Origin: Morchella semilibera
Lineage: Eukaryota > Ascomycota > Pezizomycetes > Pezizales > Morchellaceae
DNA: 64,000 nucleotides
Reading direction: 5' to 3'
Assembly (NCBI GenBank): GCA_009192285.1
Contig: WBVU01000003.1
Coordinates: forward strand, 5,239,973 to 5,303,972
The notes beneath the pieces are model-generated. The model did not search any database. It saw nothing but the letters and a program-made list of their open reading frames with translations, and was not told the origin of the DNA. The translations under genes were made by a program, and so were the position numbers. Every line of letters starts with the position of its first letter. Position 1 is the stretch's first letter. Positions 3,853-57,700 of this stretch are shown piece by piece.

Positions 3853-6163
3853 TTCTCTGCTGACATCAGAGTTATGGGGTTTTGATAAGCCCTCAGTACG
3901 TTTGAAACCTGTGCAGAGAGTAACGCCGCATATTAAATGCAAATCCTTGGAGAGCTTTAGGAGGGCGTTATGTCATGGTATCTGATTTCTCATGGAAAAC
4001 ATTGTAACATGCTGTAAAAAAATACATATAGCCTAGCATATATGTGTAACTTGAAATGAACATAAGTACATGTATGTACCTCTCCGCATTGAGACGGGTT
4101 GGCGGAAAGAAATTGATGTAGCAGTGAAGACTCGCGGGTTTCTTGTCTAACTGCATGTGTTTCATTTTTCGCCACTATCACTTTTGCCTCCGAGGTTTTA
4201 CCTCGCCCATCTCTACGATAACCCCTTTTATACATGTACCTAGATACATCCGCGTCAAGCCTTCTTGGCTGTAACCTAGTGCTGCAAAAATAAATCAGAA
4301 GTAAGTACTAATACCGCGCTGTGGAACAGATACAGACATCCGTTACTACCTGATGCGTTCTCCGCAACAAATAACAACGAACCCACTACAGCCAACACCC
4401 TTCCATAGTTGTACATGTAGTTATAGATCACACGGAGCGTCTTGCAACAATGATTAAATAAACATTCTGCTACCTCTTTGATAAGGGACGCTGTTGTTCA
4501 AATTCATAACATACAACATAAATCAGGGGATTACCTCTGTTTTTCGCGCTCACTAGCTAAAGATGAAGGAAAAACGTGCAGAAGACAGCTAAACCTGTTC
4601 AAGAGCAGTGCAGTTGTGAATTAGGGTGTAATCTCTGGCGATTATGGTCTCGTGGATAGTAGATCTTGACGGTGTTACGTTCATATCGGGTGAGTGACCA
4701 CTTATATATTAGCTAGGCCAATTCTGCGGCTGGGTATATATGATTTACTGGTTTCTTCAGGTAGCAAGCATACTTGCATTAAGCGTTACTCAGGCAATTT
4801 TGTCGCTTTAGCAGAGCAAGTTTATGTGGTTTTGTATCATAAAATTGCTTCCAGTTTTTGTTGTTGTGGACAGATGTTTCTCTAACATTGCATCACGGGC
4901 TATAATCACTTGGAGTGGATATATATAATGTAACTGGTTAACAGAGAGGTGGGGGGGGGGGGGAGGGAGGGCAATCCCGTTAGTCTTTGGATCTAGTTGG
5001 CAGCTCTACATGTATCTATCTGTTCCTCCACAATCCATCGAGTGAGAGATCATGATCAAAGAATGCACTTGAGACCTTGCATTTCCGGTTTCAGTTCGGC
5101 GTATCTCGTTGGCAGCAGCAGCAGCAGCTCAGGGGACGCCCGGGGGGGGGGGGGGGGACGGGTTGTCGATCATTCGGTGGGTGCACATAAGATTAATTGC
5201 CGGATGCTGCGCCACCGCCCTGCGGCCGACCGAAATCTGACAACCCTGTAGACTTGAGCCCAAAAACACGGATCACGTATCACGTATCTACATAATTGTC
5301 AATTGATTCGAAAAAAACTGTGCCGTGGAGGCGGCAACATACTTTGTCGCACGTCACAGTTGATAGGAAAAAAAAAAAAAAAAAAAAGGCTTAGCTAGCC
5401 AGGGACTCAGTAGTGAAAAATTTCAATGATGTCGGTAAAAAAAAAAAATCCATATCTTCAAAACTCGATTTTTCCCACAGACCGGATAGTTAGATGGAGT
5501 TTTGGCGGGGGGTTGTTCTCCCAATTGTGGATTTTACCCGGTTACACTGAGTTCACGGGGTACATCTAAAATTGTGTAGGAGGCTGTTTGAGCCCAGAAA
5601 CACGTGATCCCCCCATCAACAAAAATAGATCGAGAAGCGCGTCAGAACTGGCGAATGGGGTCTTTTCCTATGGATTTGTAGGACCAGGGGTAGCTTCTCT
5701 ATGTAGCTCATGGAAGCTTAGGTACACGCTTTAACGGTTGCTAGGAGCTAACCAATACAGAACGCGTTAACCGCGCTTGAGAGTACATGTAGCTAAAAAT
5801 GTTGTATGTAGCTACATGTAGACACAAGCTCTCTTCCCCCCCCCCCCCAAACCCCCATTGACGATTTGAACTCGTTCCAGACACGCCAGGGGTAGAATAG
5901 ACTGGTTTCAAGTGGGCTGTGGAATCTGATAAAATAAAATGATACATATTGATGTTCTATGCACATTTAAGTCATAACATCTTAAACACAGCCGCAGTAA
6001 TACTTACCTCAGTCAGTAGTGACCAGACAAGCAACAAGCTTACCTCACTGACTCACCGACACCTACAGCGAACAAACAGTTAACTATCGCCCGTACCCTC
6101 TCCACCATTAATTCCTAGATCAACTATCGCATATCTTCTACGACCTGTATCTATACCCAACCA
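3853..6163. other. intergenic, homopolymer-rich
   Basis: No supportable gene. The stretch holds long G tracts near 4951-4965 and 5141-5157, a poly-A of about 20 at 5368-5387, a poly-C at 5837-5848, and several TACATGTA palindromes (near 4070, 4232, 4412, 5005, 5788, 5812). The final 150 bases are C/T-rich and probably form the promoter of the gene at 6164. Confidence 0.4.
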
Positions 6164-6973
6164 ATGTGCTACTTCCTCAGCGTTCGATACTCGCACTGTA
6201 ATCACCGCATCGTCTTCGTCGTACAAACTCCTCCTTATTCCTGTATTGACAACTGCGAACCACCCACCTCACAAAGCCCTGACGAGGTCCAGCACTCGCG
6301 CTCGAATCGTACCCTCTGTCCCTCATGCTACACTGCCCGATACCCCACGCGCACGATCCATCCACCGATACTCCGCGAGCCCGCCCCGAACCCCCTAAGC
6401 TTCATCAGTCCTGTCGTAACAGGGGAGTATGAAGGCGACGAAGATACTCTCGACCGCTTCCGCAAGAAGCGGAGAGAGCACAGAGCACAGCAGGCTCGTA
6501 AGGGACGGACCCAGCTCGAACCTGTGGGTATTGCAGAACAGGCGATCCTAAACAGTGGGTGGCTGGCGGCTAAAAGGAAGAGGAGGGTGTTTGAAGAGGA
6601 CAATCATGACGATGATGAGGATACCCGCAACTTCGACCAGGTCCTGAGGGGCCTCAGAGGTATTCATGACGGGGAACATGACGTCGAGAGAGAGCGTGGT
6701 GGGAGAATAAGATGGGTAGAGAGATACTTTGCGGGAGAACCGGACTACGATGAGGATGATGAGGATGATGAGGATGAGGACGAAGAAGAGTCTGAGGGGG
6801 ACTTGAAGTCTGTAGCAGAGTTTGAGAGTTTGCCTGCAGCCCTGGAACAGAGCAGTCCTAGCTGTGCTGCTGATTCCGATGGTTTAGAGGTGGGGGGCCG
6901 GTTTGGTGTCCGTAGTGGAGTTAGCATTTCCCCCGTGTCTACCGTGGCCACTGGTCGTCGTAATTCAGTATGA
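6164..6973 (+). CDS. small Cys/His protein with acidic C-terminus, tandem copy 1 (269 aa)
   Basis: A single-exon frame starting at ATG 6164. The N-terminus carries Cys2, then Tyr-Ser-x-Cys12-x-His14, Cys27-x3-Cys31 and Cys52-Pro-Ser-Cys55-Tyr. This M-C-...-Y-x-x-C-x-H-...-C-P-x-C arrangement recalls small, poorly characterised putative zinc-binding proteins common in filamentous ascomycetes (family resemblance, not a named domain). Residues about 95-150 are rich in Arg/Lys. A run of Asp/Glu follows at about residues 195-215, encoded by GAT/GAG repeats at 6749-6790. The next gene downstream (7339) repeats the Cys/His pattern and the R-S-N-R-x-L-C-P-x-C-Y motif, so the two are probably diverged tandem duplicates. 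The basic-then-acidic layout suggests a nuclear or chromatin-associated protein; that is inference. Confidence 0.65.
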   Translation: MCYFLSVRYSHCNHRIVFVVQTPPYSCIDNCEPPTSQSPDEVQHSRSNRTLCPSCYTARYPTRTIHPPILREPAPNPLSFISPVVTGEYEGDEDTLDRFRKKRREHRAQQARKGRTQLEPVGIAEQAILNSGWLAAKRKRRVFEEDNHDDDEDTRNFDQVLRGLRGIHDGEHDVERERGGRIRWVERYFAGEPDYDEDDEDDEDEDEEESEGDLKSVAEFESLPAALEQSSPSCAADSDGLEVGGRFGVRSGVSISPVSTVATGRRNSV

Positions 6974-43064: not shown

Positions 43065-43673
43065 GTACATGTAGGTATAGTCACTCCGCAAAAGTGTTTG
43101 TGATTCCAATTTCAAACTAGGAGATTTTCTATATATAATCATAGCAAACCGTCAAAAAAAACAAAAACAAGGGAAGACCTCTATAGCTAATCAATGACCT
43201 ATCTTCTTTTTATAACCCACTGTATGATATTTTTTTTGTTGTTCTGAATTTCAACTTTAATCCAGTATGAAAAAACGAGGTGAAATCACTACCAATAGGA
43301 TCGACCGTATTCCTACCGCACTGATAGCATTTATTGACGGGAATACTGTAGTGTACTTCAACATCAATACCACAGCCGCGGGCGCGCCACACTGCGCACT
43401 GACAGTAAAACTAAATCACGAACACTTTACTTTTGCTGAGTGGCTGTACATGTTCTCTCACTCGAAAATATTTTACTGTTGGTCCCGACCATTGGCACAT
43501 GTACAAGGGAATATTTTCCTAAGTCTCCACCACTACCACACCACCATTTGACAACAGCGCGGTCTCCATGCAACTTGTTAAATAGATCTTTCCCCAGTTC
43601 ACATCCCCACACTCAAATCCCAGGGAATCCCCGCACTCAAATCCCAGAAAATCCCCGCACTCAAATCCCAATC
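43065..43673. other. leader region with dispersed and tandem repeats
   Basis: Includes a copy of the dispersed repeat (43264-43288 and 43304-43337) and the 24 bp tandem repeat directly before ATG 43674. A frame at 43267-43551 covers the dispersed repeat and may be a gene relic. Confidence 0.45.
43603..43673 (+). repeat. 24 bp tandem repeat (x3) adjoining the start codon
   Basis: Three copies (43603-43626, 43627-43650, 43651-43673) of a unit with ATCCCC[AG]CACTCAAATCCCA. The period is a multiple of three and the repeat is open in the same frame as the following gene, encoding N-P-R-T-Q-I-P-E-like octapeptides, although no in-frame ATG precedes it. Confidence 0.85.
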
Positions 43674-44527
43674 ATGGCTCCCTATTCCGTTGAGATTCCC
43701 CCTGGCTACCACGATCCCGGCCTCCTCGCTTTCAACGAGAACGGCCATGTCTATATGCGAACTCCCGGGGAGGTGTATAATAACATCTCACCCGAAAGCC
43801 CCTTCTCATCCTCCAACGAATCTGACCGCAACTATAATTACCGCGGCTCTGATAAGAGGATACAGCTTCAACAACCCAGCCAAGCATTCTTGTGGAACAT
43901 GTCCGCCATATTCGCCTACGACACCCAGATGCGCGCCGAACAGGCTGAGTCACACCGCAGCAGAATCGAGAATGCCCGCAGGAACTACAGAGCTCGTGTT
44001 GATTACTCAAGCCGCCTGGAGGGGCCGCCTGAACTTATAGTTACACCACGACCTGCTGTGGAAACAAACTTGATGCAGGTCATTGGTCTTCTTGAATATC
44101 AACAGCGCCTAACACACGAGGGCTGCCAGCGGTGGAAGCTTATCGAAGGCTGGCTTCTGTGGGCGAGGGCATCGATAGGAATGCTTCATACAGTTCAGTT
44201 GGAGCACCTATTAAATGTTCATCGGTTCCTAGAAGAAGGGGTGGACGAAAACGATAGAGTGAACGTTGTCGATTTTGACTCCTATAGAAGCTACGATGCG
44301 GAGAGCGATGGATCCAAAGTTCTTGAGCAACATCCCACCGAAGCTAATGCCGAGTCTAAACCTGAGGCCAATGTCATCGGACATTCTGCGCATCACCGAA
44401 ACTTAGGTATTCCTCCTAACCAATGAGCGATGCTACTACACTACTTTTATGATACTTTATACTAACGGATTAGGCAGGCTTTGATATTAAGATTGATGTC
44501 AGCGATCGTCAGATTATCCGATCTTAA
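43674..44527 (+). CDS. unknown protein, helical (about 260 aa)
   Basis: ATG 43674 lies directly after the 24 bp repeats. Main exon 43674-44406, then an intron 44407-44477 (GTATTC donor, strong ACTAAC branch, GCAG acceptor) and a short last exon ending at 44527. If the intron is not removed, the frame stops at 44426. Residues 60-120 are Arg/Gln/Glu-rich and probably helical. Residues 120-190 hold a hydrophobic helical hairpin (L-M-Q-V-I-G-L-L-E-Y and W-L-L-W-A-R-A-S-I-G-M-L), not long enough for certain membrane segments. The C-terminus is acidic. No family recognised. One of a series of orphan genes on the + strand here. Confidence 0.58.
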
Positions 44528-45937
44528 ATTTCACCTCCGAGTCAGAATTGGAAGATATAGTCACTATAAGTTCCGGCCCATCCTCCACTCGTACAATTGT
44601 TCATACCCTAGCTCTCTTAATAGATGAAAATGTAAGGTTATCCTGTGAGATGGATATTTAGCCATATCATTGGGTTGGTTTGAGGGGTCTATCTTTTTGT
44701 TTTTATATTAACCGCCTACATGTTGTTTTATGTGGATCAACTGTGTGATTACATTAATTCTTTCAAGTCAAACAAACAAACACGGATGTTAATTGTCACA
44801 GCATATCTCAGGACAGCATGTGATACGAAATTAGCCTTATCAAAAAAAAAGATTAGGGTTTGGAAATACCAGTGATTCCTCGTAGTATATCTTGAAGTGA
44901 GAATTTTAGTTTGAGCCATGACAGCAGACGATAGCTAAACGGAATATAAATTCAAACGATAAATTGAGAAAAGGACTAATGAGTCTTGTCTAGCAAATCC
45001 CTATGACCATTCACTCTCCGTAATATATTTCCTCTGTGTATTCCTTGTTCTCCTATCCCTTCGATGCATACCCTGGCTTGTAGCTGATCCTCTCTATTAG
45101 GGCGCCGTAAACAGCCTTTATAGAGACGCGATTCTATGGGCCATCATGTTTGATTCGTGGTAATGACGGCGGTCTAATCTTCTTTCTTATCAATTGTAAG
45201 GGAGCATCAGGTATCGTAACAACCTACAAGCGCTCCCAAAAAGTAAGAACTATAACATTTACAGAACATGGAATTGCTTGAAACATGTAAGTTATGCGAT
45301 ATTGGACAACTCTGCCCTCGACTCGACACTTGTCATACATACATGTATCTTTCATAATTCACCGTCAAGCTCTACATGTACATGTAGTTATGAATCATGG
45401 CGGTAATCCTGGGGTACCCTAGGAGCTTAATTCAATCTGAAGAAACGAGCCCGTTGACACTCTAGACCTCTTCCGAGTAGCACCCGTTTATACTTATGGT
45501 GGAGTATAAATGCGCATAAGAGCCCATCTCTATGGGTCCAGCTGCAAATTTCTGAGAGCCATTCATTTCCTTATGACAGAGAATGTATTGCATAAGAGTA
45601 TGTGTACGTTACTCCTGCCTATGTATGTATCATTCATCAAATGAGAAGAAGGATCGATGCTAAAAGACACACTTTGCCTCATAACATATTGGGTAGTGCA
45701 CTACTCTATCCTCCCTTTCTGTCCTTCTTTAGTCTTAGTATTCTCTGCATTATGATTTGTTGCTGGGAATAGTTGGTTGTCCAACTTTTTTTTTTTCGGC
45801 GCGGCTCAAATTATAAAAGTTTATGTTCAGCTTATCGGCTACATATCATGTCAATGCAAAGGAGTCCCTCGGGCTCCACCACTTCTTTCGCTCTGATCTG
45901 CTCTCACTTTTCCCAGACATCATAATACCACACCGCA
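44528..45937. other. 1.4 kb intergenic region
   Basis: AT-rich; TACATGTA doublets near 45343 and 45372-45385. No coding frame of note and no repeat besides. A C/T-rich leader precedes 45938. Confidence 0.4.
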
Positions 45938-47632
45938 ATGAATCCCTCCAGTGATGGCGCCAAAGGCGATCCAACCATTTCAGCATTTCGTCAATTCGAG
46001 CTGATGCAGGTAGATGGGAATCATCACCCAACGAGAACAGTGGCTGCGGCAACTCCAGATACTTCAAAAAGACAGAAAAGAAAGCTAAAGAAGCAACTAT
46101 ACCATAGCTCTCAAGGCTTGTCTGAAAAGAACAAGTCCCCTAACGCCCCAGCAGCTGGAACCTGTTCTCCAGCTCCCCCAGGCGCATCCACCCGCGATAT
46201 GACCTCCCAAAGTCGACCTCGCGCTGGCGATCCTGGCCATTCTAATAGTTCGTCAGTCAGGCAATTACGCCCTAAGGATTCTGGAAATCTCGGTGGTGAA
46301 GGTCACCAAACGCTGACTCAGAAGGGCGGCTTTGTTCCACCGCAGTCCCTCCTCTACCAAGAAGGAATACGGGGGAACTTCCACCGCAGGATCTTAAGCT
46401 ACCCACTCCCGGCCATCTCTACGCCTCCCACCGTCAAACAAATGCGAAACTTTGAGCGCTACAAGATTCAGGACAATCATCTCGAACGTGAACTCAAGCG
46501 TGGGCAGCGCTACGACGATCCTGTTCTTGAGAACGCGCCTAGGATGCCTCGCTCGGATAAGCTACGACTACAAGAGCTTGAAAGGCTAGAGCGTCTTCAA
46601 AGAGAATCCCAAGCAAAACCCTCTACTAAGTCCCCCCAATACCCTCTAGCTGGCAATACCTCCAGCAACAGTAGCTTCCACGACGACTCCAACTATCTTG
46701 GTGGCTCCCCCGAATGGCCTCAGGATCCTAAAATTATAAAGCAGGCAAACAAAGAGCGTAGCCTTTATTGCAATGAACTTGCTCCCGATAGTTATCGCGT
46801 CCATGGGAGGATATCGGAGGATCCGATTGCCAAATTCATCCCCCGCAATGTAGAGGTCCATCCACAAAATACCAGGACCACCCATGCTATGCCCGCGAGA
46901 GCTGATGGGGCTGACCCGGTCCTGACAGTCTACCACTCTAGCGCTCCTCAGGGTAAGCAGCTCAATATTTCAAGTGCTTTCTGTTCGCTCACAATTTCTA
47001 ATTTGATTACAGATGAGACCCCTGCGATACGCGCGAGGAAAATTGTCAACGAGTTCAGAGAAGGGAAGGGTCTTGGTGGGCCACTGGGACTAAGCAATCA
47101 CCCTGACGCTAAAGTCCGCGGTGAAGAGAACATAGTGGCCCTTGAGCGAGAATACCATCGCCAGGCCACTAATGACCACAAAATTCACAGGTTTTTCATC
47201 AAGCGTGCCAAGTGCGACTTCACTCTGATGACAACCATTAAAAATGTCCTCAAACGTGGCATACCAAGCCCTGCTGAAATCAAGGAAATGATGGAAGCCA
47301 TTAGCTACCTCGAAGCTGGCCTCAAGAAAAACCCTGCTTATGGCCCCGATGATCCTTGGTTCGAGAGAATTGCGTGGATCAAAGCTACTGTTACTGGACC
47401 CCATGGTAGGCAGGTCAGGGCTCTTCGGAGCATCTACAGGCTTCTCAACGGCGAGGGCATCATGTTCCGTGAAGATGAAAACAGCGAGGTCTACAAGGGG
47501 GCTGAATCTAACCACATCAATCTTCTTCAAGAAAGAGACGGTTCCTCTTGGTCGGTAGGCCCTCCAACACCAGAAGTGCGACTAATGCTAATGATTGCAG
47601 AGTCTTCTGACAACGCCGCCGGCCACCGATAG
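45938..47632 (+). CDS. unknown protein (544 or 564 aa)
   Basis: One long frame from ATG 45938 to 47632. A 60 bp GTAAGC...ATTACAG segment at 46953-47012 looks like an intron, yet has no stop codon and is a multiple of three, so both spliced (544 aa) and unspliced (564 aa) products are possible. The N-terminal 130 residues are Ser/Pro/Lys-rich with a K-R-Q-K-R-K-L-K-K basic patch that could be a nuclear signal. A charged helical stretch follows (E-L-E-R-L-E-R-L-Q-R-E, residues about 210-222). The C-terminal 200 residues look folded (R-K-I-V-N-E-F-R-E-G-K-G-L-G-G and F-F-I-K-R-A-K-C-D-F). No domain recognised; no transposon signature seen. Confidence 0.65.
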   Translation: MNPSSDGAKGDPTISAFRQFELMQVDGNHHPTRTVAAATPDTSKRQKRKLKKQLYHSSQGLSEKNKSPNAPAAGTCSPAPPGASTRDMTSQSRPRAGDPGHSNSSSVRQLRPKDSGNLGGEGHQTLTQKGGFVPPQSLLYQEGIRGNFHRRILSYPLPAISTPPTVKQMRNFERYKIQDNHLERELKRGQRYDDPVLENAPRMPRSDKLRLQELERLERLQRESQAKPSTKSPQYPLAGNTSSNSSFHDDSNYLGGSPEWPQDPKIIKQANKERSLYCNELAPDSYRVHGRISEDPIAKFIPRNVEVHPQNTRTTHAMPARADGADPVLTVYHSSAPQGKQLNISSAFCSLTISNLITDETPAIRARKIVNEFREGKGLGGPLGLSNHPDAKVRGEENIVALEREYHRQATNDHKIHRFFIKRAKCDFTLMTTIKNVLKRGIPSPAEIKEMMEAISYLEAGLKKNPAYGPDDPWFERIAWIKATVTGPHGRQVRALRSIYRLLNGEGIMFREDENSEVYKGAESNHINLLQERDGSSWSVGPPTPEVRLMLMIAESSDNAAGHR

Positions 47633-50146
47633 TAACAACTCGCTTGCAGATATGATATCTTAAGGTTGATTTTAGGGGTTTGGTATGTTGTTTGGGGCTG
47701 GGTACATCGATATGTAAAAGTTCGATTGGCCTGCCATGTTACGATAGAAAGTAGAATCATGTTATGTCATTCTCTTATAACATGTATATGCATGCACATG
47801 TAAGCTTTGATGGCTTTTTTATGGTACATGGGATGAGTTGTCTGTAGGCTTCAAGCTGCATTAGTTGTATCATGGTTCATGTACTTATGCCCGTGGGGAC
47901 GCCTCACCTATTACATTATCCTTCTCTTCCCCCTCTTTTTCTTCCATTTGCTTCCAACCTTATTTTTGGTAATAGTAGTAACAAGCTAACCCCGAACACG
48001 AACCCGTAGAGAAGGGGACTGGAGGAATTTCCGCCGGTGGTAGAAACGGTGAGGCACCTTGACTCGAAAAGCCTTAGTCCACCACATCAAGTACTTACAT
48101 GTAATTTGTAACTGTCCGCTGGGTTTACATGTTTATTCCTGAAATACTTTAACCCAGCTATATTATATTATATGAAAAATAGGTTTGTATTTACTATAAA
48201 ATCCGTATAACTAACTCAACTAGGTAAAGTGCTCACCTGTCTCTCAAAATATTTAGCCAAAATATTTACAGTATTAGGCCCGCTGGGCTTTGTGAAGCAA
48301 AGAACTAATTTTTCTAGGTTAGGCAAAGATATCTATTAGATCAGGGAGCTTAGGATACCACACTACATGTAAGTACCTCAATCTATGCTTTGCAAGAGTT
48401 ACTACTACATGTACATACATGTACTTAATGTATTATGATACTCAGCCCGACCTAGTATAATGAAGGGAGCATGTAAGAAGGCAGTTAATTCAGATACAAA
48501 TCTCGACATAGAGAGTTTAGCTTGCCTGACCAAGTTAGTTCCTTTTATTTCCGCTGTTTATCGCAACCTTCTTCTGAGCCCAGTATCCTGGATAAACCGC
48601 CATTATAGAAAGAATGAATGCACTATACTCAGTGCAGTAGTAGCGCGTATTGACGGGGATGCCTTAGCGAGCCCACACCCTTTTTTTATACTGTAGGGGT
48701 AGCTACAAGCAAGACTATTCCTGGTATGGAAATGGTTGCCCGCATGAGGAATGGCCCGACAACGTGCATACATATTTCAATGAGACATGCATTAACTTTA
48801 ACCCAACGACCTGGTTGACCTAAATAGGAAATTCAAAAATACATCCATCCTACCGTAAGACAGCCGTAGATCTTATCAGTAACAAATGGCTTTCTAAATG
48901 AAATTGGCGGGGGAAAACCCCAAGGCTGCACTGAGAATGGCAGACTTAGGTCCTAGATCCCTTTGATGGCCCTAAACACCTCCCGGGGATCGAATGTTCA
49001 TGATCTAATCCACGAGGTGAAGGTGAAGGGGGTGGAGTTTTTCCTATGCTTTGACGAACGGAGAGCCTTAGCTCTCCTAGCCTATGCGCTCTGACCCCTT
49101 AACTGTACCCCTTGTGGAGTCCTTTCTATCTTTACCGCACGCGCGCGGGGTTCATGAATTTATGATATTAGTGGAGACTTTGCCCAATCTACATATATAT
49201 CACCTTCCTTTGGCTTCGCCTAATCGCCTCAGGAACTCATTGGGGCTAACATTGAAGTGTCCCGTTTTCTTTGGGTTGGAGTGCGTATACGCCCCGGGTG
49301 GAGAGGCCCTCTCTCGACTAGTGAGTAGATAAATAATAGAAAAGGTACTCAAATTCTCGAATTAAACCAGCCAGTGCTTTGCAAATTTCTGCCTTATACG
49401 TAGCATACTACATTGTAGTTATAGATATACCATCGTGATCAGAGATTCATGATGACCTCATTACTCCTTTATGACCATATATCGTTTATGATTTATATTC
49501 TCGGATATTCTAGTCGGTACGATTGACTTTCAAGATTTTACTGCGGGAGTACGGAATATAATCGCCGTATAGATCCGTTAGTACTACCCACCTACTTCTA
49601 ACACCCCTCAAGCTTGCCCCTCTCCCGTGCAGTTGTAAATAATGATATCAATACATCATTATTTCCTCTAGGGTTTTCGTAGGGGAGGGCCTAGGGACAT
49701 AGAGAATACGTGTCCATCCCCACAGAAGGCTATTTTTTTGATATATACCACTCTCTGTTCAAAGTTTTAAGTTGTAAAAAGCTAAAGTAGATCCTGAAGG
49801 AACTACGAGGCTTTAACATTCCTCTATAAAGGCCCTGAGATAAACATGTTGTTAATGATTTATATTATAATTCTAGTACCTCTTGTGAAATGAGATACGA
49901 GAGACTTCTGATATATCTATAATCCCCGTCTTCATGCCCTGGTGGTGTCGTCTTTTTTAAGTAGTCGCGGGGATCTTTTGATTTCCACTTACATTCTCTC
50001 AGGTTAAGGGTTTGTAGTACCCCCTTCTAGTTTCCTTATAAACCTCCTCTCACCCTTCTACTTCGTCCCCCACCTCTTAGCCCGCCAAACATCGCCCCCT
50101 TTCCCCACTTCTGTTACCGAGAGTCTTTCAATTTAATCTATATCAA
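47633..50146. other. 2.5 kb gene-poor region
   Basis: The + frame 48460-48696 shows a short protein-level resemblance to the relic frame at 43267-43551 (S-A-V-V-A-R-I-D-G against T-A-L-I-A-F-I-D-G) and is probably part of the same dispersed repeat. TACATGTA is frequent near 47783, 48096, 48363 and 48405-48424. Nothing else is supported. Confidence 0.4.
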
Positions 50147-50653
50147 ATGGCCGAACAATCCAACGAGCAGGGCCAGTCCCACGTCACAAAGAATGGCGCC
50201 AGCATTAGCTCTCCTCTTGGCACACAATCCGTTGAAACCCCAAAGGAGAAATCGAATTTCCCCAATACCCCCAAAAGCGGGACCACGCGCGACCAACCGC
50301 CAAACTTAAGTAAAAGCCGTAGGGAAGCGGCCTTGCTGAACCGAAAGTCCCCACGCGAGGTTCTCTCACCAACACCTGCGGTCCGCATGCGTCGCATTGA
50401 ACGCCGGTAATAAATATAGTCTCTTCACTCATATGTGGAGTGCTAACAACGGCCTTTCGGTAACAGATCCCTTAGCCAAAACATCAACGAGTTTTCGGCT
50501 GCTTCTTCCCCACTTGAACAGTTTAGTGCCACTCTTCAAGAAGAGGATGATGGTCTCGGAATCCCATCCGTAGACCCTTCCGAGCAGCGTTCCCAAAGCT
50601 TGGACGTTGAAATGACTGATGATGGGCAAGAAATGCCCAACAGTGATTTTTAA
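50147..50653 (+). CDS. unknown small hydrophilic protein (148 aa, two exons)
   Basis: Exons 50147-50406 and 50467-50653; the 60 bp intron (GTAATA, branch GCTAAC, acceptor CAG) keeps the frame. The first half is Ser/Thr/Pro-rich with the basic motif S-K-S-R-R-E-A-A-L-L-N-R-K-S-P-R-E (about residues 55-71) and R-M-R-R-I-E-R-R at the junction. The second half is acidic (Q-E-E-D-D-G, M-T-D-D-G-Q-E-M). No membrane helix or signal peptide. The layout suggests a disordered nuclear protein. Not recognised. Confidence 0.6.
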
Positions 50654-51872
50654 AATGCGGGAACACCAGTAAGCGCTCAGCTGTAGGCTAATGTGATGAT
50701 AAGACTAACGTTGTATAGACTGTCTGCAGTCATTCATCTATCATTGATGAAGTATTGTCGTACTCTTATTATCCTATCGTTTTTAACAATTTCTTTTCCT
50801 GTGTTTTTTTGCCTCGGATAGTATATACGTACGCGGACAATCACTCACACGGCTCTCTCTGTGCGATGATTCTGCTTCGATATACTCTATCGGCTTTTTT
50901 CGTACGGGTACGGCGTAACTTTCTTTGCGAGCTGGGCGCTCAAGTATAATTATTAACGTGCCTCCGGCCTCATCTTTCTTGGTAATTTTTCTCCTTCGCT
51001 TTCGTAATTTTGGTAAAGCTAACTGTGCTAGTAGTATCGGTTCATTGAGAGATGTCTCATCCTAGCTAGTCGTTTCAATTTATTTCTTTCGTCAGTGCAT
51101 CACCTGCAAAAATTTTTGCTTTGATACCAACCTACGTCCTAGTATTTCTTCAGTGTTTGGTTGCTTGAAACCACCCTTCCCCGTGTATCCTTATAGAGGT
51201 CACGACAGAGTTCTTTCTTCTAGTTAGTTAAAGTGCTTCAATTCATGTAAACTTAGCCTGCTCTTTGTATGTCAAGAGCCGACTCATGTGGGATTAGATA
51301 AAAAAAACCAGCTGAGCCATACATGTATCTTCCTGGATGACGTAACAGTATGGCCTGTGCACTAATTCGCCAACCGAAGTAAGTTATGCACATTTTGTCG
51401 TTATCTTTTAAAACGAACCCGATCTCAATTACATGTAAGTCTCTAGACTTCATTGGAATGTACGGCCTAGTACAATTAGATGGATTATTCGTCTTTCTGA
51501 TGCATACATAGTATGATGGTGGGTTCCCGCAGCGGGTATTTTCACAGTTGTGATCTTATTATGATCCTGATCGTGACATGCTCTCACATGTTGTGCCTTT
51601 ACTTTGGCACGCTTTCCATTCCAACGCCCGTACCTACATACATAAACTACATGTATTTCTCCTCCATCTACCATCTACAGGGCGCACATCCAAACCACGT
51701 GCTTCATCGCTCCGGCCATCCCCCCACATCCCTCGCAAATAAAGAGCTGGAAAAATAGTTCTTTAGGCATCCCATACCTCCCAGAATACGACGAATCCTC
51801 TAGAGATAGGAGGAACGTTTAAAACACTCCAGCGGTTGAATTTTCGATATTTTAAAGGTTGACATTCGCAGG
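50654..51872. other. intergenic region
   Basis: No supportable gene. The frame 50755-50949 is short and without a motif. TACATGTA occurs near 51319, 51430 and 51649. Confidence 0.35.
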
Positions 51873-52654
51873 ATGAAGTCTCCAGCCGCCACAACCAGTG
51901 GCCTTGAAAAAGGTCTTGAATGCCGTGGGGGCGGACCAGGTATATATCCCCCCGACTTACTAGTCGAGGCATCATTGACGGTTTTACAGAACTCTCCCGA
52001 GCTACCCGTATAATACCTGATAATTCTCGAACAGGAGGACCACGATACACTCAGCTCACTCGGCGCAATACCATAAACAGTCCACACAAAGTCCCCAGGG
52101 AAAGGCTCAGGACCCTTTCAATGACCGCCCCGGCGGTGACAGAGCAACCGCTGCAGTCAGGGGAATCCCCCACCAGCAGCATATCTAGGCCAGTTTCACC
52201 AACAGATGCATTCCTAATGAGACAGCGCACGAGCCCTCCACCGGGCTTGATGTCATTAGCTGGGAGTATGCGTGCGATTCTCAGTGACCATTTCAAATAT
52301 GCCTGCTTCCACAGGGTCCCTCACAGCTACTTATGTGTCCAGGCTCACACCCATTGTGCCCACACCCCTCCCTGTGGAGAGTCCCACGAACACTGCATCT
52401 GGCGCCCTTTATGTAGAGAGACTCACCATCACTGCTTACAGGGCATTGCCTGCCAACTACCTCACGAACACTGCTTTATTTGGCATAACCCAATTCAGTT
52501 CAGGATGGAGGATGTGGTCGAAATTACTCTGACGACTCGTCTCCCCAACGGGTCGATGAGGAGGTACCGACCCGGGGATATACCAGTGATGAATTGCAGG
52601 TACTGTCGGCAGATGCTTGGCCTAGACTTACCCCGCTGTGGTGAGGGAAATTAG
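51873..52654 (+). CDS. protein with four 13-residue Cys/His repeats, putative metal-binding (243 aa)
   Basis: Favoured model: exon 1 51873-51939, intron 51940-51989 (GTATAT...TTACAG, 50 bp), exon 2 51990-52654. The unspliced alternative starts at ATG 51920 and shares everything after the junction. Residues 1-125 are hydrophilic and Ser/Pro/Arg-rich. Residues 138-184 (bases 52334-52474) are four consecutive copies of C-x3-H-x-H-C, separated by exactly five residues each: Cys138/His142/His144/Cys145, then the same spacing from Cys151, Cys164 and Cys177. Two extra Cys/His (C128, H130) precede them. A C-R-Y-C pair and one more Cys follow near the C-terminus (residues 225-239). Cys2His2-type ligand sets at fixed spacing strongly suggest binding of zinc or another soft metal. 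I do not know a family with this period. The Cys-rich module has no signal peptide, so it is probably intracellular. Confidence 0.6.
52334..52474 (+). repeat. protein-level 13-residue repeat, C-x3-H-x-H-C-x5 (x4)
   Basis: The unit is conserved in its Cys and His but not in the other residues or in the DNA. This argues for an old repeat kept by selection on metal ligands, not a recent microsatellite. Confidence 0.85.
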
Positions 52655-53977
52655 TATGTATGTCCCTTGGCCGTTTGTTATAGTCGAGATCTAACTTAAG
52701 ACCAGGTGTAAGAGACTGAGGCATTGCTGCAAAAATAGCAATACCAAAGTTATAAATCGATGCCGTTTATCTAGTGAAGAGGATTTTCAGGAAGGAAGTT
52801 GAGCAGATATACAATAACAGGTATCCTAGGATATAAGGGAAAGGTATCCGCGGCCTCCTCCTCAAAAGTTAGCTGGATGTGAGGTATCTACTCCTCTTGG
52901 ATTACAACCATACTCCAACATCCATATTAATTACCGGTTACCCTATCTTGTTGTCTGTCGGGGGCCTTCCTTGGAGGGGCCGCTGGGTTGAACCCTCACG
53001 ACGGTTACTCTTTCTTAACATGGAAGAATAGCGAGGGGAATCCTAATCTCGAATGAGATCGGATTAGTCCCCGATACGTGAGTGGGTCGATAGGGGGTTG
53101 GATATTTGCCGAGTTAGTGAGAAACGGCCCTTCTCGCTGGCCGCAGATCATTTTGTGGTCCTGTGTATTTGATAATGACAATTCAAATCTTCAAATTCAT
53201 TCGCTCTTAGTGATATTCTGCCCCCCCGCCCCCTTTTCTCTACTTTCTTTCTGAACCGTAGAAAGCTACATGGCCACTTCCCCAGGGACGTCTTAACAAT
53301 ATCATCTACAGATTTACATACTGACATATTTCGACAGTATCCAATCAGGTACATCCCGCGCGTGGAATTCTTCTCCCCTCCTGCTTCAACCTTGGGCTCT
53401 CTATATTGAGCAGCAATTTGAAGTTGAGCTAGATGACCGAGTTTCCTGGAAATTTGAATACAGATAGAGCGTGGTGTAATGACCTTATAAGAAAGCATTC
53501 TTTAAAGTTAAGCCCCATCAGCTGTTGTAAGGGCAAGATTCGATATTGGTTGCTCATACCACTGGGGATGTGTCACAATCTACCACTCACTCGCTTCTCC
53601 AAATTTTCTTTATAATCTGATATAATAAGAGATAAGACCAGGTTGACTATAGTAAAAGATAGGTGCCCCGAGTATAACAATAATCCTGGTAGTTAAATCT
53701 TCACAAATATATTCGCTTTTCATAATCGTATTTGCAGTACAACGCGGCACGCCGCAAACTTTTATTTCCGTTCCATCACGCTGCTTCCCTAGTAGGTATA
53801 TCAGAGGTTGTTACCTCATGGAGTACATAGGAATCAGTGCTCAGCAAGCAGTGATTTCATTACAACAACCCCCACAAAAGTACCACGGGGTTAATCCGCA
53901 CTTCTTAGTACACCTTTACAGACCCCTCCCCCACATCCCCATTTCTTGCTACCACTCTCACCTCATAGCCACTCTCC
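52655..53977. other. intergenic region between convergent genes
   Basis: An imperfect hairpin lies at 53035-53072 (GGGGAATCC...GGATTAGTCCCC). Frames on the minus strand near 53148-53498 lack motifs. No gene is supported. Confidence 0.35.
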
Positions 53978-54790
53978 TTATCTTGTAATTTCATTCTTAA
54001 AGATACCTTTACCGTGCATCCTACCTAGAGCTGCATCAGAAGCCAGCTCCACGTATATCAGCCCTTCCTCTATCCTCTTCTTATGTAACCTTTCATGTCG
54101 TCTTAGCATAGAATAGGTTGATAGCATCTTGGAATCCCTAAAGCTATAGGTTCGTGACGATTCACCTAGCTTATTGGGCTCTGGATCATTGGACATCATC
54201 CAATCCGAGATTCCTCTAGTACTATTCAAGTGATACCTCCTCCCCGGCGCAACAGGGTTTATAGGGATTGACTGCTTCCTTCTGTGAGTAACATACCCCA
54301 GACCGTACCCCGTCTCCCAGTGCTTAAAGAATATCCTCGTACAGCAACCAACTCTCATGAGAGCCATTTTGATTTGAACCCCTATCCTATGCGCAACAGA
54401 ATCCAGGTAATGTGCCGCCTCATGATCAGTGTCCGGGAATCCGAGAGGGCACAGCCTCGCAACGAAGTCGACACCTCGTCTCAGAATGTTCGACTCAATG
54501 TTTGTCCTCCCGATCACGCCAGTGCCAGGGAATAACTGGCAGGTTATGTCAGACCCGATCTTCCACCACCATTCACGGAAGTATCTAAAGGGAACGGTAT
54601 CAATGCGTAGTACAACGTGCTCGTCTTCAATACGGAAGGATATGTAGCATGTAGGAATCCATTGCAGCTGTATGGTGTACTCTGAGAACTCTTCGGTGAT
54701 TCTGGGACCTATTTCTAGAGTTCCTATATGATTATCGGACTGCTTATCTGTAAGATACTCCAGCAAATTTGCATCTACTATCTTAGACAT
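53978..54790 (-). CDS. unknown protein (270 aa)
   Basis: Single minus-strand exon; ATG 54790 is the first in-frame ATG (the frame is open further up without one). Mixed charged/hydrophobic composition over the whole length suggests a folded domain, with aromatic-rich stretches (F-R-Y-F-R-E-W-W-W-K near residues 67-77), Cys pairs (G-C-C-T) and a basic C-terminal third (R-R-H-E-R-L-H-K-K-R-I-E-E). No signal peptide or membrane helix. Not recognised; possibly lineage-specific. It faces the Cys/His-repeat gene tail to tail. Confidence 0.5.
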   Translation of the reverse strand: MSKIVDANLLEYLTDKQSDNHIGTLEIGPRITEEFSEYTIQLQWIPTCYISFRIEDEHVVLRIDTVPFRYFREWWWKIGSDITCQLFPGTGVIGRTNIESNILRRGVDFVARLCPLGFPDTDHEAAHYLDSVAHRIGVQIKMALMRVGCCTRIFFKHWETGYGLGYVTHRRKQSIPINPVAPGRRYHLNSTRGISDWMMSNDPEPNKLGESSRTYSFRDSKMLSTYSMLRRHERLHKKRIEEGLIYVELASDAALGRMHGKGIFKNEITR

Positions 54791-57700
54791 GATGGCTTGT
54801 GAGAACGTGGAGTCGAAAGCGAGAGTCTGGTATCCCAACCCTTAGAGCAGGGAATGAACTGTAGACGAGGGCTGCCGTGTAAAATTTTAGACCACTTGAA
54901 GGTGAAGCAACAATACCAAGAGACCACCTCTCGAGTCTTGTCAACGTTCTTCGTTGTCCCGAGCCCCTAAAGCTTTAAAATGCACCAAGTCTTAGAAGAC
55001 AGGGAAACAAATGCCAAGGTTGATGCAGGATGCTGATCAATGTTTCCCTCAAATGAAGGAATTTATGTTTGTTTATGGCTCATTGCACAGCCATGTCAAC
55101 CAGCTATCCCTATACAACTCCTCTACCAGAAAGTCTTGCGCTTCCAGTATCCCAGAGTCTCCCCATTTCATACATTTTTCTCAGTTCTGGCTCTAGCTCT
55201 ATAAATCTAGTATCTAGACCCTTCCAGTCAGACGATCCAAGTTGAAGCCGAGGCTTAGCAATCTAATGGTATAGGCTAAATGGGATTTCTTCTGACCACA
55301 AAGTCTTTGCTGGTCCTTAGAGGGCGGGGTTACCACATTTATTGCTAAACCATCTCATTGGTTCAATAAATAAAACGTACACGTGGGCTACATACATATA
55401 GGAACTGCTGTTTATACTCGCGTACCTGCATTGAAGTATAGACAACACAGGACAAGCTGGATGAACTATGAAATTGTTTTTCCTAGCTTGAAGAATATGA
55501 CTCTGAGAAAGAAGCTTAATCTAAGCTAATGAGATTCCAAGTAGTTATCGACGGAGAGAACTACATTTTTTCATCTATCATCTTCTTAGCAGAGCCAGGA
55601 CAGGACCGAGATCATACAACTACATGTAGAAATAACTACAGCATGTCGTTTTAAGTACATATATGGATGTCTTGTTAACGTTTCTAGCATTTTACCTATA
55701 GAAGCGAGCTACTACATGATGTAGCTTCTTATTGCTGATATATACTTTCCTCCGGTTGCCACCATGGTAGGTATTGATCCATGAACGGAAAGATAGTTTC
55801 TCACTTTCATCATCTTTCGTGTTAAAACCCGTGCAATATTAATAGACTTTCAAAGTCGGTTGATTGGTACATTTGTAACTGATTTCCGGAAGTTGAGGCA
55901 GGATATCCCATTATCCTTCATGGGAGTGATTTCAAGTATCCCGAAAATTTCGAATCACGATGTAGCTTCACTTCAGCTTTGTTAGACCTAATGACCGCAG
56001 CGGAGGCTTACGTACTCTCGATCTATACGCCAAGTATTAGGTCCAGTTCTTTATTATATTACTGAGGCTCCCGTCTACTCGACTGATTAGATCCCTCTAG
56101 GTCTTTAACACTATAAACTTAAACTCATGACGTACCTCCTTCGCTCCGATTCTACATGTAGTTATGGGCCAAGATTTAAAGCCGCGTCTTATCAACATAG
56201 ATGAGACTTTCAAGGCCTGTCGTGAGAAATCTGTACCACCCCCAGCGACAACCCTAAGTGGTTGGTTCCAGGGCGGGCGCGGACGAGTGTGTACTGTACT
56301 GGCTTTGATACCCTTACCGCCTCAGCAGCTCCTTCCATGGATACATGTATTTAAGCTCTTACGAACCCTTGGTATGTAGTGATTTTGTTATACACCGGCT
56401 GCATTTATCTTCCCCAGTAGTCTTCTGAATCCCCCGGATCTAGACTTGAGTCAATGGACGTAAAATCTTCCTTCTCGCCCATTTCGAGTCCGTATACTCC
56501 TAATGAAATCTTTGCCTGTCCTCCCGCTTTATGGTTCTCCGTGCCGAAGAAGTGGCAATCTGCAAAGTCACTCAGTGGAACTTCGGTCTAAATGCCATCT
56601 TTCCCCAAATGATGTAAGATACCGGTAGCTCAGCTGCTGACCTACCAATCCCCCGTACCCTTCTTCGTCTATTAAAGCTCCAAATACCCCTGTTCACCTA
56701 CACAAGTACCTCAGTTAGCAACTTATATCTTTTCTGGGAAAACAAACGTCCTCTCTCCTGCTATCTCTAATCACACACGATGCCTACATCGCTGCGTTCA
56801 ATAGCATTTCTTATCCGAATTCTTATCTCCTCCCATGCAACCTATCCCGTACAGTATTATGAGCAAACGCCTGCTCTCAAACGGATTATCTCCTTCTCTT
56901 CTCTCTTGCCCCCAACTCTCACAAACGTAGAGGCAATGTTTTTCTGCTCTACGCTGCTTGGAGACAAACCTTACACCCTCTTTCCCTCTACTTCCCCAAG
57001 ATCCTAAGAGCAATATTGCTCCGCTAAACTCCTTCAAGGAAATTACTTGCCCATCTTGCAGTATATTTCCCATTCTCGGCCTCTTCTTGAGGATCCCCCC
57101 ACTTCCCTCTCCATGCCATAACTACATCGCGGTAGAGGATGAAGAACCCGAGAAATTTCAAATTTTTTCATCCCTCCTTCACCTCCTTCACCTCATTGTT
57201 CTTCTCCAATTCATCACCCTTTTGGAAGAACCAGGGCCGGAAGGCAATCAGCGTATTTCTCCCCAATTCTTTTCTCAATTGCAATCTGTTGCTAATTTCC
57301 CTTCTTTTCTATCCAGGTTATGCCCAAAAGTAGACAAGATTTCCTGATTGCAACCCCTAGGCGTTTGTCCAGGAGTTCATGCAGAGGGATTCAGATACAT
57401 TTGATGGGGTCCACCCTCATGCAAAATGGCTTATCCCCTGGCTTGCTCTCGCAGACCTGTCGGCCCTTGGCTGTAATTAGCACAGGTTCTATGAAGATTG
57501 AAGCATTTTGGTCAGCAAATATACATCGCTATCTCCGTTCTTTGGAAGGTATTCTTTGTGAGATAATTTCATCTCAGCTTATCTCTGCCAGAACAACTCT
57601 AATGCTAGAAAATAGGCATATAGACTCACCACAGAGAGCGTTGCGCCACCGGCGTGAACAGGATCTATTACGTTTCTATCATGCTCCGTTCATCGCCTAC

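Follow-up and report, generated by a model that had tools for sequence, protein, structure and literature searches.

The window, meaning the whole 64 kb stretch of DNA analysed here, carries an amino-acid permease, Paf1 and an isochorismatase, together with long open frames that have no Pfam family (43440-44426 and 45926-47632 on the + strand, 53978-54841 on the - strand), and the part around these frames, 43440-54841, may be rich in orphan genes. Another frame with no Pfam family (6119-6973, + strand) has an N-terminal region containing several Cys and His (MCYFLSVRYSHCNH..., LCPSC) followed by acidic runs. The genome as a whole yields two HET domain matches, compared with none in 14 prokaryote control genomes, and is probably that of a filamentous ascomycete. 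At 51920-52654 on the + strand, an open frame counted from its first Met encodes 244 aa, inside which the initial annotation had claimed four exact 13-residue units of the form C-x3-H-x-H-C-x5; reading the DNA confirms all four. The features of the locus are as follows.

51941..51947, + strand: TATA-like stretch TATATAT, found by eye
52121..52654, + strand: putative coding region of 177 aa, running from Met68 (the likely start) to the stop codon
52121..52279, + strand: N-terminal stretch, residues 68-120, Ser/Pro-rich by eye and probably disordered
52304..52333, + strand: C129-x-H131-x3-H135 directly before Cys139, positions as read, a possible N-terminal cap
52334..52372, + strand: repeat unit 1, CVQAHTHCAHTPP, first Cys Cys139, read from the DNA
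52373..52411, + strand: repeat unit 2, CGESHEHCIWRPL, first Cys Cys152, read from the DNA
52412..52450, + strand: repeat unit 3, CRETHHHCLQGIA, first Cys Cys165, read from the DNA
52451..52489, + strand: repeat unit 4, CQLPHEHCFIWHN, first Cys Cys178, ending in an extra C185-x3-H189
52595..52639, + strand: C-terminal C226-x2-C229-x10-C240, positions as read, a possible extra metal site
52641..52705, + strand: candidate 65-base intron with GTGAGG donor, CTAAC branch site and CCAG acceptor, found by eye

The placing of the array at 52334..52474 is correct, base 52474 being the final base of its last ligand Cys; the first Cys of each unit had been numbered 138, 151, 164 and 177, one too low when counted from the Met at 51920. 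The Cys residues of the array stand at positions 139, 146, 152, 159, 165, 172, 178 and 185, and the 47 residues from 139 to 185 comprise 8 Cys, 10 His, 2 Lys/Arg and 4 Asp/Glu, with 2 Gly and no Phe by eye. The linkers are hydrophobic in part (IWRPL, LQGIA; AHTPP is not). Additional Cys and His had been described on both sides of the array, and are found there as C129, H131 and H135 before it, and as H189, C226, C229 and C240 after it.

The start of translation is likely to be Met68 (52121) rather than the Met at 51920, because the TATA-like stretch falls within the first 67 codons of the longer frame. Use of the candidate intron would convert the protein end from CGEGN to CGVRD, altering the last residues alone. 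Codon usage does not favor this frame. For residues 68-244 the synonymous codon score is -0.033, third of the six frames, and for residues 1-244 the frame ranks fourth of six, on a scale trained with 12 Pfam-backed stretches (nine MFS stretches of this genome and three window genes) that are themselves imperfect, as five of the nine MFS stretches contain in-frame stops, probably introns read through. The true frame came first in 10 of 12 left-out control genes, and three other unrecognised open frames of the window (43440, 45926 and 53978) rank second or third. A hexamer coding score (22 long ORFs) puts the 244-codon frame at -0.24, below the median of -0.20 for 53 wrong-frame pieces, on a measure that failed its own control by scoring the real amino-acid permease at -0.12 vs 0.12 for an overlapping ORF on the opposite strand. 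The lack of codon support may mean that an orphan gene here is young or little expressed, or that there is no gene at all. A scan for bacterial-type promoters and terminators found none of either, and has no bearing on a fungal gene.

Protein and DNA searches of the organism's own genome (56.8 Mb, 23 contigs) found one copy of the array. The sole other match of the repeat region there (C16:918551-918685, E 0.10) was discarded: the 551-codon ORF at that place appears by eye to encode a transporter, and the match falls in another frame than that ORF's own. The DNA pattern of one unit occurs 182 times in the genome vs 76 times for a reversed control, and among the 100 of these 182 matches that were listed, up to contig C15, none lies 39 bases from another; very divergent further arrays elsewhere in the genome are possible. 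Of the 100 listed matches, 19 resemble by eye a short, dispersed MITE-like inverted-repeat element that carries a 24-base one-unit pattern (L049 366-389 and L050 169-192), and in L050 there is a stop in the motif's frame within the element. A third matched stretch, L051, holds a single motif with stops nearby. Contig pairs C9/C10 and C12/C13 display identical Helicase_C scores at near-equal offsets and share pattern matches, a picture that could come from an assembly retaining both haplotypes or some contigs twice.

Beyond this genome, the description of the protein as otherwise unrecognised holds for Pfam (no family at E up to 10, in a search whose HMMER filters may drop weak matches), for NCBIfam (no family match) and for plasmids (no relatives), and is matched by the lack of a paralogue among the own-genome results. 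Ten stretches of viral contigs fit a peptide pattern, none of them a relative. Sequences of solved structures gave weak matches, which we set aside: three CFAP141 sequences in the profile search (E 0.11-0.24), through short single-motif matches, and four accumulation-associated protein sequences with the whole protein, at E values no better than 2.6 and by way of residues 50-93. The two-unit DNA pattern was found in three stretches of viral contigs and in 13 of prokaryote genome contigs, and all 16 were read in frame. Fourteen of these were dismissed by eye as Arg/His/Cys-rich low-complexity or otherwise unvalidated frames, and another (L003) as a 12-codon frame with a stop inside the pattern. 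One of the 16 (L017) codes, by eye, for a believable protein, a DUF1844 protein of a Thermoguttaceae bacterium (L017:3656-4150, - strand). Like the fungal protein, it has 13-residue units fitting C-x3-H-x-H-C-x5, here CDCGHEHCGSDSN-like and located in an N-terminal tail; unlike it, it is bacterial, its units are near-identical to one another and have an extra Cys at position 3, and the partner domain is different. This apparent metal-binding tail is probably convergent with the fungal array. No literature on CX3HXHC-type motif strings, or on 13-residue Cys/His repeats, was found among openly licensed PubMed Central papers. The protein is perhaps restricted to its fungal lineage.

The pattern is rare and non-random. 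Across the six frames of the window, C-x3-H-x-H-C matches these four units and nothing else. When residues 121-195, whose composition is already 12% Cys and 19% His, were shuffled 200,000 times, one motif arose in 5,979 shuffles, two in 64, three in 1 and four in none. All 16 ligand Cys and His are kept across the four units, while at the nine non-ligand positions any pair of units has between none and one residue in common. At the DNA level, unit pairs have 6-12 of 27 non-ligand bases in common (22-44%, against a random expectation of 26%), which suggests that the units, if duplicates, have decayed close to randomness outside their ligands. TRF listed no DNA tandem repeat at the array, and no direct repeat (minimum 14 bases) was found in 51000-53500, which together argue against the array being a minisatellite of recent origin. 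In the ligand codons there are three deviations from the majority base, each a third-position T/C change (3 of 16 third positions vs 0 of 32 first and second positions, p 0.03), and the array's frame has four invariant columns vs none or one in each of the other five.

Part of this evidence bears on whether a gene exists here at all. If the frame were open by chance alone, across the remains of a 39-base tandem repeat that decayed long ago, this would account for the unsupportive codon usage, and for the absence of a homologue from the collections searched (own genome, viral contigs and plasmids). In simulations of neutral decay, which assume homogeneous decay and a tandem-duplication origin of the units, at least four invariant columns arose in 1,512 of 600,000 runs at the observed overall identity of 50% (and in 769 of 300,000 runs of a separate simulation), but at least four invariant Cys/His columns arose in 0 of 600,000. 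With the ligand columns taken as given post hoc, the probability that all 16 ligands would be kept, were their codons decaying at the non-ligand rate, is approximately 1e-12. As the pattern is also kept in one frame only, and the frame stays open for 244 codons, we regard the absence of a gene as quite unlikely. Selection for metal ligands, proposed at the outset from the repeat pattern, thus draws support from within the protein (16/16 ligands kept, the neutral simulation and the confinement to a single frame), consistent with a translated product under such selection.

Comparison with known metal-binding families sets the spacing apart only in part. Zinc fingers of the C2H2 type are spaced C-x2-4-C-x12-H-x3-5-H, CCHC zinc knuckles C-x2-C-x4-H-x4-C, and NF-X1 fingers C-x1-6-H-x-C-x3-C-[HC]-x3-4-[HC]-x1-10-C; none of these three patterns matches within residues 68-244. 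The array resembles CCHC knuckles and C2H2 fingers in offering four Cys/His ligands per short unit, and knuckles are similar in size to its 13 residues, but the spacing differs from both. To this extent the initial view that no familiar family has this spacing was borne out, but it is right only in part: it had overlooked the CCCH fingers, whose general pattern, C-X4-15-C-X4-6-C-X3-H as given in PMC2267713, is matched by six overlapping stretches of the array, including those from residues 139, 152 and 165 in the form C-x6-C-x5-C-x3-H. That form is described as rare, in tomato and soybean, in PMC12026475. Divergent CCCH-type fingers of this spacing, acting on RNA, would explain the C-x5-C-x3-H that the array contains. 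Against this, the matches from 139, 152 and 165 have Cys152 and Cys165 in common, leaving consecutive fingers without four separate ligands each, such that only two of the three could form at once. The array also has a 13-residue period, and the conservation of an extra His (H7), and of all units equally, is left unexplained. It is not basic, has no Pfam match even at E up to 10, and with 2 Gly and no Phe in residues 139-185 lacks the Gly/Phe richness cited for CCCH fingers in PMC2267713. Because the matches share Cys, the extra His is unaccounted for, and both Pfam match and Gly/Phe richness are absent, we have not filed the array as CCCH, a reading that we consider improbable.

Dense ligands also recall metallothioneins and other Cys/His metal buffers. 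A buffer or store of this kind, in which the array soaks up Zn (or Cu, Ni or Co) and has no fixed fold, fits the very high density of Cys and His in residues 139-185. Metallothioneins carry C-x-C or CC pairs, however, and the array contains neither; a buffer would have no need of a strict 13-residue register or of hydrophobic linkers, His equals Cys at the conserved positions, and the array makes up just part of a 177-244 aa protein. Metal storage is thus an unlikely principal role. Much less plausible still is a secreted protein bonded by disulfides in place of metal. It would suit the many, regularly spaced Cys, but leaves the equal conservation of His unexplained, and by eye no signal-peptide-like hydrophobic start follows Met1, Met68, Met100 or Met111.

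We favor instead a compact, tandem metal-binding array, most likely of Zn(II), in a fungal protein found once in its genome, which would form a rod-like scaffold with a probable protein partner; taken whole, this proposal has in our judgement an even chance of being right. Equal numbers of Cys and His at conserved positions favor Zn(II), Co(II) or Ni(II) over Cu(I). Each 13-residue step provides two Cys and two His, and the four units could therefore hold about four metals with no sharing of ligands. The ligands of one metal might come from within a single unit (C1, H5, H7, C8), or from neighboring units (C8-x5-C1-x3-H5-x-H7). Grouping between units appears more likely, since it would place the adjacent His and Cys on separate metals and allow a last site to be completed by C185, H189, C226 and C229. 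Structure prediction by AlphaFold, run without relatives, was too poor to use in choosing a fold (mean pLDDT 33.9 for residues 68-244, and 47.1 for residues 121-195).

Metal binding would give this otherwise short sequence its fold, that of a rod-like scaffold whose partner would most likely be a protein. With few charges and hydrophobic linkers, the array looks more like a folded scaffold than a protein that binds nucleic acid, and the lack of a basic surface also speaks against such binding. Taken with the partly hydrophobic linkers and the strict register, this makes a protein-binding scaffold our first choice of function, with moderate confidence.

More tentatively, and with somewhat less than even expectation, we propose that the array represents a new zinc-repeat fold, with one zinc per 13 residues bound by C-x5-C-x3-H-x-H or C-x3-H-x-H-C, its units joined head to tail with no linker and packed more densely than tandem zinc knuckles. 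Such a fold would trace back to tandem duplication within a single fungal lineage, after which the units diverged except at their ligands. If there is indeed one zinc per 13 residues, few repeating metal sites that we know of would be as compact, and the array would be a minimal case of metal ligands alone holding a repeat protein together, with possible use as a design template. It would also be an instance of a zinc repeat arising within an apparent orphan gene.
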